The notes beneath the pieces were generated by a model. That model had not been told where the DNA came from and ran no database searches. It saw only the letters and a program-made list of their open reading frames with translations. A stretch of DNA of 64,000 bases from Argopecten irradians (taxonomy: Eukaryota; Mollusca; Bivalvia; Pectinida; Pectinidae): the NCBI RefSeq assembly GCF_041381155.1, contig NC_091142.1:10597340-10661339 (forward strand), in the 5' to 3' direction. The position numbers were made by a program, and so were the translations under genes. Shown in pieces: positions 1 to 61,620 of this stretch (position 1 is the first letter of the stretch; the number at the start of each line of letters is the position of its first letter).

Positions 1-632
1 CCGTGTCATAGTTACCTGTTTCCATGTCATAGTTACCTGTTTCCGTGTCATAGTTATCTGTTTCCGTGTCATAGTTATCTGTTTCTGTGTCATAGTTACC
101 TGTTTCCATGTCATAGTTACCTGTTTCCATGTCATAGTTATCTGTTTCCGTGTCATAGTTACCTGTTTCTATGTCATAGTTACCTGTTTCCGTGTCATAG
201 TTACCTGTTTCCTTGTCATAGTTATCTGTTTCTGTGTCATAGTTACCTGTTTCCATGTCATAGTTACCTGTTTCTGTGTCATAGTTACCTGTTTCCATGT
301 CATAGTTACCTGTTTCCGTATCATAGTTACCTGTTTCCATGTCATAGTTACCTGTTTCCATGTCATAGTTACCTGTTTCCGTATCATAGTTACCTGTTTC
401 CATGTCATAGTTACCTGTTTCCATGTCATAGTTATCTGTTTCCGTGTCATAGTTACCTGTTTCCATGTCATAGTTATCTGTTTCTGTGTCATAGTTACCT
501 GTTTCCATGTCATAGTTACCTGTTTCCATGTCATAGTTATCTGTTTCCATGTCATAGTTACCTGTTTCCATGTCTTAGTTATCTGTTTCCGTGTCATAGT
601 TACCTGTTTCCATGTCATAGTTACCTGTTTCC
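1..632 (-). repeat. 21-bp minisatellite of repeated splice-donor sequence
   Basis: Thirty head-to-tail copies of a 21-bp unit fill the left edge, and the array runs off the window. Read on the minus strand each unit contains ACAGGTAACTATGACATGGA. I count 22 copies with an intact CAG/GTAAC donor-like core and 8 with CAGATAAC. The array begins where exon 20 of the minus-strand ABC transporter ends, so the true 5' splice site is probably one of the first copies (near 625 or 604). The unit is seven codons long, so any donor choice keeps the same phase. In the exon frame a stop appears after about three copies. The other frames stay open only because the unit is a multiple of three. Confidence 0.93.
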
Positions 633-59600: not shown

Positions 59601-61620
59601 CTGATGGGGAGGGAGGGATGGATCTTCTATATACCTCCTCTCAGGATAGAACTGTCATAGTGTGGAGGGGAGATAATGTAAGTATGATAGGGGCTGGTTG
59701 GGAGGGAGGGATGGATCTTCTGTGTACCTCCTCTCAGGATAGGACTGTCAAAGTGTGGAGGGTAGATAATGTAAGTATGAAACGGGCTGGTGGGGAGGGA
59801 GGGACGGATCTTCTATATACCTCCTCTCAGGATAGGACTGTCAAAGTGTGGAGGGGAGGTAATGTAAGTATGACAGGGGCTGGTGGGGAGGGAGGGACGG
59901 ATCTTCTATATACCTCCTCTCAGGATAGGACTGTCAAAGTGTGGAGGGGAGATAATGTAAGTATGATAGGGGCTGGTGGGGAGGGAGGGACGGATTTTCT
60001 GTATACCTCCTCTCAGGATAGGACTGTCAAAGTGTGGAGGGGAGATAATGTAAGTATGATAGGGGCTGGTGGGGAGGGAGGGACGGATCTTCTATATACC
60101 TCCTCTCAGGATAGGACTGTCAAAGTGTGGAGGGGAGATAATGTAAGTATGATAGGGGCTGGTGGGGAGGGAGGGACGGATCTTCTATATACCTCCTCTC
60201 AGGATAGGACTGTCAAAGTGTGGAGGGGAGATAATGTAAGTATGATAGGGGCTGGTGGGGAGGGAGGGACGGATCTTCTATATACCTCCTCTCAGAATAG
60301 GACTGTCAAAGTGTGGAGGGGAGGTAATGTAAGTATGACAGGGGCTGGTGGGGAGGGGGAGGGACAGATCTTCTATATACCTCCTCTCAGGATAGGACTG
60401 TCAAAGTGTGGAGGGGAGATAATGTAAGTATGATAGGGGCTGGTGAGGAGGGAGGGACAGATCTTCTGTATACCTCCTCTCAGGATAGGACCGTCAAAAT
60501 TTAGAGAGGAGATAATGTAAGTGTGATAGGGGGCTGATGGGAGGGAGGGGGGTAAGGAGAGTACTTCTCAAAGGACTGGACCATCAAGGTGTGGAGGGGC
60601 TCCATAATGTAACTGTGATGGGGGGGGGGCTTATGGTGGTGGGGAGGGTAAGGTGAATACATATCACAGGACCAGGCCATCAAAGCATGGAGGGAAGATA
60701 ATGTAAAGATGATAGGGGTCTAGTGGGGAGGGAGGTTAGGAGAGTACATCTCACAGAACTGGACTGTCAAGATGTGGTGGTGATATTATGTTAAGTATGA
60801 TAGAAGGCTTGGGTGGGGGGATGGGGGGGGGGTTGGTAAGGTGGTAAGGATAGTACATCTCCTCATCAAACAGATCATTCAAGGTGTGGAGGGTTTGCAA
60901 CTGTTAATTTAGATTGATCTCCCCTTAGGAGCTAATGTTGTTTTAAGAGAATCTCATTGTAATAGCTGATGGCTTCCTGAGAGAGCAACATCTTATAGCT
61001 GCCCCAAGCCATTCATATATAACAATGCACTAAATTGTTTTTGGCAATAGTCAAAACCTCTACAGCACAGATCACTCTGTTCCTTATCAACTTTAATGAG
61101 TACCTGACTTTGTGAAAGATTTTGACTGGTTGTTACTCGGCAAGCCTCCTGCTGGCCAGTCAAATCTTTCACTTGAGGTAATATATCACTGTTTAACTGA
61201 CAGACCACAAACTTCATAACAGGACATATTGGTTTACATGTTACTATTTCCAACTGAGCAGTGTGGCTGAGTGATTAATGTATTTGACATTTGGACACTT
61301 GCTCTCTATTATAATCTCTTGTCTACAACGTCCTATCAGGATAAATAAGAAACTGTTTTTGTGATGGATGCCTGTTGTTTTCTATGACTATTTTACACAG
61401 TCTTTTATGTTAAGAAATAAATCTAAAAATATTTGAGTACTTAATTTGACTTCTGTTTTGATGAAATGTGTGATAATGTTTCAGGGTGTGTTATGTAGAA
61501 CGTTACAAGGTCATGGTCACTGGGTCAACACGATGACCTTGAGTACAGATTATGTGATGAGGACGGGAGCGTTTGACCCAGCCGATGCCCGACTAGTTCA
61601 CCAAGATATTACAGAGTCAA
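53655..61620 (+). CDS. NLE1: Notchless homolog 1, WD40 ribosome-assembly factor (N-terminal nine exons)
   Basis: Exons: 53655-53659 (tentative), 54612-54771, 55142-55362, 56085-56164, 56860-56936, 57828-57925, 58429-58465, 58778-58933 and 61485-61620; all phases fit. The product is the Rsa4/NLE family factor that works with the AAA-ATPase MDN1/Rea1 to mature pre-60S ribosomes in the nucleus. Seen: NLE domain with [20 protein letters not shown] and FFVNDTEIT, then [20 protein letters not shown] (human [20 protein letters not shown]) and WD40 blades: [55 protein letters not shown]. Exon 9 has [20 protein letters not shown] (human [20 protein letters not shown]). The remaining blades must lie beyond the window; I find no later exon up to 63400. 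Exons 6 and 8 end in tandem arrays that multiply their donors. Exon 1 contributes only Met and two bases; its placement is inference. Confidence 0.93.
53986..54057 (-). tRNA. tRNA-Thr(AGU)-like sequence, copy 1 (possibly SINE head or pseudogene)
   Basis: A 72-nt cloverleaf can be drawn: acceptor GACCAGG/TCTGGTC (one G-U), D arm GCTCAGTCGGTAGAGC, anticodon loop CTAGTGT (anticodon AGU) and T loop TTTGAAT. The anticodon stem CTCGG/TCGGA is weak and the T stem has one mismatch. It is part of a ~222-bp direct duplication with the next entry, which argues for a tRNA-derived repeat over a dedicated gene. Confidence 0.5.
54208..54279 (-). tRNA. tRNA-Thr(AGU)-like sequence, copy 2
   Basis: Same structure as copy 1, but with a canonical T loop TTCGAAC and one acceptor mismatch (GACCAGG/TCTGGCC). 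Both copies are followed on the minus strand by TTTTCTCCTCTCCTGTTACA. Located in NLE1 intron 1. Confidence 0.5.
56993..57190 (+). mobile_element. tRNA-derived SINE
   Basis: The head CAGTGGCCGGGTGGTTTAGA, the central GGTCGGTGTTTTTCTCCAGG and the tail ACCCTGGCTGTTAATAGGAT are all present in order. Same family as 8905-9126. In NLE1 intron 5. Confidence 0.8.
57914..58075 (+). repeat. 28-bp tandem array multiplying the NLE1 exon 6 donor
   Basis: The exon end and donor TTACACTT/GTGAGTTGATGT recur about six times as TTACACTTGTGAGTTCATGT with a 28-bp period. The first copy is the exon border itself (57925/57926). The unit is not a multiple of three, so use of a later donor would shift the frame or meet stops (TGTAAACC contains TAA). 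Confidence 0.9.
58867..60910 (+). repeat. 93-bp tandem array multiplying the 3' half and donor of NLE1 exon 8
   Basis: About 18 good copies with 93-bp period run to about 60520, followed by roughly five decayed copies to 60910. Each unit repeats the end of exon 8 ([20 protein letters not shown]), its donor GATAAT/GTAAGTATGATAG and about 27 bp of intron. Each also has an acceptor-like TATACCTCCTCTCAG 33 nt before the donor. Seventeen units carry the identical donor. Because 93 is a multiple of three, the frame stays open for about 540 codons until one unit has two extra bases. I read the array as intron with a single genuine exon copy at its left edge. Confidence 0.92.

Follow-up and report, generated by a model that had tools for sequence, protein, structure and literature searches.

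In the genome of the scallop Argopecten irradians, tandem repeat arrays are coupled to donors, the 5' splice sites; the coupling is real and reaches beyond the 64-kb stretch of DNA analysed here as a whole (hereafter the window). The excess of arrays at donors over intron sequence is well supported; that donors are preferred over acceptors emerges clearly from TRF alone, the word counts being hard to compare. These arrays are probably mirage-type minisatellites, born by tandem duplication of the end of an exon together with the start of its intron and expanded within that intron. The evidence for the donor excess consists of few events, from a small sample of one mollusc genome.

Results

Arrays at exon ends of NLE1 and SUR

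The window corresponds to C9:10597340-10661339. A muscle-myosin exon elsewhere in this genome agrees at 107 of 107 residues with the bay scallop (Argopecten irradians) myosin chains 1dfk, 1dfl, 1b7t, 1kk7 and 1qvi, whereas 2ec6 and 2os8, from other scallops, score lower; this upholds the placement in molluscs. The minus strand of the window carries the gene of a sulfonylurea receptor (SUR, ABCC8/9), and the plus strand carries NLE1, aligned to human NLE1, and a putative MAPK15-like kinase gene. The repeats at or near donors of SUR and NLE1 are the following, in window coordinates.

57912-58069, plus strand: NLE1 exon 6 array, 26-bp unit, 6.1 copies (TRF); first unit spans the donor GT at 57926-57927
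58867-60549, plus strand: NLE1 exon 8 array, 93-bp unit, 18 copies (TRF); first unit spans the donor GT at 58934-58935
1-637, minus strand: SUR exon 20 array, 21-bp unit; first unit spans the donor at 624
9132-9230, minus strand: SUR exon 13 array, 30-bp unit, 3.3 copies (TRF); begins 12 bp after the donor at 9243, non-straddling
14840-14985, minus strand: SUR exon 5 degenerate repeat of about 17 bp; donor at 14981, repeat begins about 4-6 bp inside the exon
16663-16769, minus strand: SUR 19-bp array (TRF), about 150 bp downstream of the donor at 16918 and wholly intronic, a counter-example

An earlier, sequence-only reading of this DNA had counted five donor arrays. Three of them straddle the donor, the first unit taking in 14 bp of NLE1 exon 6 (57828-57925), 67 bp of NLE1 exon 8 (58778-58933) and 13 bp of SUR exon 20 (778-625). 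The case of SUR exon 5 is weak, as its repeat is degenerate (the best adjacent duplicate is of 27 bp with 22 matches) and is absent among the TRF rows of the window with a score of at least 50. That of SUR exon 13 does not straddle its donor, the array beginning inside the intron; a SINE-like repeat (tRNA-like, by eye) lies directly after this array, at 9060-9131. The same reading had placed one further array against an acceptor; by eye, no TRF array abuts a called acceptor in the window, where acceptors were called for part of the exons and such an array may have been missed.

Decayed extra copies of the 93-bp unit reach about 60900, and the 21-bp array continues past the start of the window to -472, with about 53 copies overall. 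To the left of the window, an array of 35-bp units, 3.8 kb long, starts 21 bp inside the SUR exon whose translation ends in GLSITYALLV; about 111 copies of this unit were aligned.

Donor copies and exon joins

The exact donor 9-mer was found 106 times in the roughly 111 copies of the SUR 35-bp array, 18 times in about 18 copies of the NLE1 93-bp array, 5 times in about 6 copies of the NLE1 26-bp array and 35 times in about 53 copies of the SUR 21-bp array, where the first intron base is altered in 28% of copies. Divergence at the donor positions of the 35-bp array is about that at most other positions. Inner donors of this kind are what one would sooner expect of intron sequence that is neutral and homogenised than of either strict retention or strict loss of donors.

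When the exons were joined through their first donors, NLE1 aligned without gaps to human NLE1 over both array junctions, and the SUR exon preceding the 35-bp array, joined to the next exon, aligned without gaps to SUR1; these joins, three junctions in all, were made by the analyst. The acceptor of the NLE1 intron (61485) falls outside the 93-bp array, and the gapless joins are compatible with an old intron as well as with one born by duplication. Use of a neighbouring copy would shift the reading frame where the unit is 35 or 26 bp long but not where it is 93 or 21 bp, so in the latter two arrays copies may be included in the mRNA. With regard to frame selection, the unit lengths of straddling arrays are a mix of multiples of three and others.

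Other repeats in the window

At the end of the kinase gene, a perfect duplication shows the same logic as the donor arrays in the absence of a splice site, the coding end being retained by copy 1.

43771-44013, plus strand: perfect two-copy 121-bp tandem duplication across the kinase-gene stop codon at 43814-43816 (TRF and sequence inspection)

Between exons of the kinase gene lies an open reading frame of 1,125 codons (36702-40076, plus strand), by eye a retrotransposon. Positions 30068-30384 hold a dispersed element, MITE-like by eye, which is about 315 bp long, has inverted ends that measure about 77 bp and matches on both strands; of 6,208 first-look candidates, 39 scored places are other occurrences of it. 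A composite of an array of about 155-163-bp units beside a short C/G-rich tandem repeat of 4-7 bp was seen at six places, one of them locus L039 of the exon sample described below. The composite resembles a mobile element with tandem repeats inside it.

1844-3459: long-unit array, with the short repeat at 3469-3537
23693-25148: long-unit array, with the short repeat at 23609-23677
31122-32435: long-unit array, with the short repeat at 31001-31067
-17499 to -16709, outside the window: long-unit array, with the short repeat at -16699 to -16669
71386-71700, outside the window: long-unit array, with the short repeat at 71707-71750

An independent sample of exons

The window had been selected for its array pattern and therefore provides no test of chance, so exons elsewhere in the genome were used. 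Loci were taken from profile matches to CCT chaperonin (30 of 59), myosin head (30 of 82) and kinesin (80 of 130), and none of the 121 SNF matches was used. Eight of the 140 loci were removed, two without an exon end (L012, L013) and six as copies of one exon (L015, L025, L033, L038, L039, L041), which left 132. Splice sites were called with a simple generic matrix on the unannotated genome; a donor call was impossible in 19 of the 132 loci, including L140, where an array begins near the exon end. Some CCT exons occur two or three times at near-equal scores (C4:11541000-11570000 and C451), which points to retained haplotypes or a recent duplication, and a non-straddling intronic 36-bp array has 6.1 copies in one copy of a CCT gene and 7.1 in another.

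Arrays that straddle or adjoin a splice site in this sample are the following.

L022: donor-straddling, 53-bp unit
L052: donor-straddling, 21/34-bp unit
L064: donor-straddling, 123-bp unit, present twice
L099: donor-straddling, 62-bp unit
L101: donor-straddling, 33-bp unit
L107: donor-straddling, 35-bp unit
L109: donor-straddling, 78-bp unit
L111: donor-straddling, 110-bp unit
L133: donor-straddling, 30-bp unit, few exon bases within the unit
L144: donor-straddling, 59-bp unit
L097 and L115: arrays beginning at most 1 base from the donor
L082: degenerate donor array
L068: acceptor-straddling, 60-bp unit, 26 copies
L138: acceptor-straddling, 35-bp unit, 7 copies
L046 and L063: degenerate acceptor-straddling arrays

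The donor-straddling units are unrelated in sequence and measure 21-123 bp (21-110 bp in the TRF cases). Where the exon part of a unit is long, as in the NLE1 93-bp, SUR 35-bp, L022, L099 and L111 arrays, it encodes conserved protein, and those arrays thus originated from the exon.

Array edges at donors and acceptors

TRF arrays with a score of at least 50 and a period of 10-130 were compared with the positions of 113 donors (eight of them set by hand) and 123 acceptors, the expectation being taken from CCT and myosin introns, where 134,576 bp contain 48 five-prime edges. Within 70 bp on either side of the donors, 16 array starts were found against 5.7 expected (P = 8e-4). Nine of these lie 4-70 bp inside the exon (2.7 expected, P = 0.003), two at the donor itself (0.4 expected) and five on the intron side (2.6 expected, P = 0.14). 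Array ends near the 123 acceptors showed no excess (6 against 5.9 expected), with one on the exon side. When the ends of the HMM matches replaced the splice-site calls, 10 starts were counted on the donor side against 3.8 expected (P = 0.007), and two array ends on the acceptor side, also against 3.8.

Recurrence of donor sequences

A second test, independent of TRF and based on automatic calls only, took a 28-base segment with the donor at its centre and asked whether it recurs with at most 6 mismatches within 150 bp downstream. Of the donors called in 113 loci, two were dropped for low complexity, as were four of the acceptors called in 118. The control consisted of intron points, from the CCT and myosin loci only, whose sequence recurs downstream but not upstream, as in a first unit; such points made up 1.09% of a total of 11,881 (bootstrap 0.70-1.50%). 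Eight of 111 donors recurred (P = 3e-5 against this control, 3e-4 at the upper bootstrap bound). Under the control's full condition, with no upstream recurrence, the count is 7 of 111 (P = 2e-4), the automatic call of L099 having landed on the second copy. Five of these seven are among the 68 kinesin donors and two among the 43 of CCT and myosin, the families which supply the control. Long exon parts may have aided exon detection at L022, L099 and L111; without these three loci, 5 of 108 donors recur (P = 0.007).

Acceptors were slightly high in the same test (4 of 114, P = 0.04 against the control), two of the matches (L020, L116) being automatic only, and L138 stands outside both tests as no acceptor was called there. 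The two kinds of site did not differ significantly (7 of 111 against 4 of 114, Fisher P = 0.25).

Compared instead with all intron points that have a downstream repeat (5.3%), the donor figure is not raised (P = 0.23). The first-unit control is held to be the correct one because a donor array can be met in its first unit only. A null in which the junction may fall anywhere within an array was rejected as unfair, given that repeats lie downstream of as many as 5.3% of intron points and that arrays cannot centre on exons.

Whole-genome word counts

Splice-site words were counted over the 845.8-Mb genome with the reversed word as control, in counts that large arrays dominate. The donor word CAGGTAAGT occurs 19,404 times (reversal 5,409) and forms 3,256 tandem pairs 10-40 bases apart (120) and 4,285 pairs 41-71 apart (134). 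Per occurrence these pairs amount to 16.8% and 22.1%, while the reversal reaches 2.2% and 2.5%, ratios of 7.6- and 8.9-fold. A second donor word, AAGGTAAGT, is less frequent than its reversal (13,185 against 19,562) and yet forms 1,483 pairs against 282, that is, 11.2% against 1.4% per occurrence (7.8-fold). For the acceptor word TTTTACAGG there are 14,721 single occurrences against 20,539 and 865 pairs against 673. The resulting 5.9% against 3.3% per occurrence, or 1.8-fold, is not directly comparable with the donor values, since this word is rarer than its reversal and its share of true acceptors is uncertain.

Among the matches listed, CAGGTAAGT has four distinct arrays on contig 1 up to 6.5 Mb and, at the wider spacing, nine further ones in 21.4 Mb; AAGGTAAGT has two in 5.5 Mb and the acceptor word TTTTACAGG six in 46.2 Mb. 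The four CAGGTAAGT arrays listed with their letters have units of 46, 40, 48 and 42 bp and unrelated sequences.

The sequence-only reading had proposed that unrelated units are seeded at exon-intron borders above the level of random intron, and would have yielded to an absence of enrichment there. For donors, enrichment was found both in the independent sample and in the genome-wide word counts; for acceptors the proposal fares less well, with no TRF excess and a weak excess in the recurrence test.

Discussion

Origin of the arrays

The account which we regard as probable begins with a short segment, the end of a coding exon with the start of its intron, which would be duplicated in tandem and would then expand inside the intron, with slippage or unequal exchange as the possible mechanism. 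Of the copies, the outermost would remain the working exon end and donor, presumably the only donor used, and the inner ones would be intron, removed by splicing. The observations behind this account are first units with coding sequence and a donor, the same layout at many unrelated donors, gapless protein joins through the first donor and the excess at donors over intron. Donors could exceed the neutral rate because more duplications are born near the border or because donor arrays are retained longer; a candidate cause of longer survival is that one copy is held by selection. Acceptor arrays, if they are indeed rarer, may be so because the spliceosome would encounter upstream acceptor copies first.

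A stronger proposal, which we put forward only tentatively and would not presently favour, is that 5' splice sites are a hotspot where arrays are born several times as often as in neutral intron, owing either to something inherent in the exon-intron border, be it transcription, chromatin or nascent RNA, or to an advantage of having repeated donors. The sequence-only reading had named replication slippage, R-loop or nascent-RNA-linked breaks and DNA methylation boundaries as candidate causes. Microhomology at donors is an unlikely source of such a hotspot: among 94 donors, 47% have some 6-mer that recurs downstream, compared with 66% of 2,089 intron points, and short direct repeats are thus scarcer near donors than in introns.

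It is rather unlikely that arrays arise everywhere at one rate and that an intact first copy makes those overlapping donors visible, with no bias involved. Arrays are dense enough (48 edges in 134,576 bp of intron) for 2.7 straddling cases to be expected at 113 donors, the perfect duplication over the kinase stop codon is arranged likewise, and the any-recurrence control reaches 5.3%. Tolerance of random duplications would thus explain that straddling arrays exist. The donor excess over intron is left unexplained by it, whether measured by TRF starts (2.8-fold), first-unit recurrence (about 6-fold) or word rates (7.6- to 8.9-fold).

Arrays might also be kept because their extra donors are useful, as redundant donors or as U1 sites guarding long introns, which appears improbable. 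The inner donors are largely intact (106 of about 111 in the SUR 35-bp array, 18 of about 18 and 5 of about 6 in NLE1), as such selection would predict, but young homogenised arrays would appear identical; moreover, the donor positions of the SUR 35-bp array diverge like most others and the first intron base of the 21-bp array is changed in 28%. At position -1, G is present in 6 of 9 array donors against 67 of 85 other donors; the complement, 3 of 9 against 18 of 85 without it, is a weak hint in favour of selection from nine array donors only.

Inflation of the word counts by one dispersed satellite family with a donor-like word is very improbable: large arrays do dominate the word-pair counts, but the units of the listed arrays are of 46, 40, 48 and 42 bp and unrelated, as are those of the sample at 21-123 bp. 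Least credible of all is that the arrays came first and exons extended into them, recruiting a donor from the repeat unit, which would likewise predict a donor in each unit and might still apply to cases with few exon bases (L133, SUR exon 5), but is opposed by the conserved protein encoded in the long exon parts and by the three tested joins, which match their homologues without insertion.

If about 6-8% of donors carry arrays of themselves, the spliceosome must choose among many identical donors in succession, which amounts to a natural experiment on donor choice. Such arrays provide a countable handle on the birthplaces of tandem duplications in genes. They may be a source of new introns and exons, and they call for caution in bivalve gene prediction. 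Were donors confirmed as a hotspot of array birth, mirages would be widespread among animals in general, and their cause would be particular to donors.

Comparison with known systems

The sequence-only reading held that no such bias had been described. As regards structure this was mistaken: PMC3087553 and PMC3902484 describe amphioxus 'mirages', minisatellite-like tandem duplications of exon-intron boundaries found in Adh3, in the globins BflGb6 and BflGb9 and in troponin C, with similar repeats in PGBD5. According to the same texts, their units range from 10-72 bp (Adh3) up to 150-160 bp (globin), many copies carry splice signals, and by RT-PCR mirages seem not to disturb splicing in lancelets. 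The scallop arrays likewise span exon-intron boundaries, have units in the minisatellite range which vary between loci (21, 26, 35 and 93 bp at SUR and NLE1) and retain the donor word in most copies; acceptor arrays also exist (L068, L138 and the degenerate L046 and L063), albeit without a TRF excess. Length instability between haplotypes or cells is another mark of mirages; the one copy-number difference seen here is that of the intronic, non-straddling 36-bp array in the two CCT gene copies. Whereas amphioxus mirages were described gene by gene, at 5' and 3' boundaries alike, those of the scallop, a bivalve, concern about 6-8% of sampled donors and exceed the level of intron.

In the Rogers model, as cited in PMC3087553, introns are created by tandem duplication of segments bearing AG/GT. 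Local tandem duplication including a splice signal is common to both, but there the duplicate gives rise to a new intron within the exon, whereas in NLE1 the array does not take in the acceptor at 61485. Internal tandem repeats in exons and introns are also known from human genes in segmental duplications (PMC2812944). These share with the scallop arrays minisatellites that alter gene structure, and the account, in its accessible part, speaks of exon and intron repeats and not of a donor bias.

Among the matches listed in a literature search, with most subscription papers beyond reach, neither such arrays outside lancelets nor a genome-wide mirage frequency and donor excess were found described. 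Judged from their sequences, the closest reading of the scallop arrays would be that they are mirages, and many. The structure is already known; what is new here is the taxon, a scallop, the frequency of the arrays and the bias of donors over intron.
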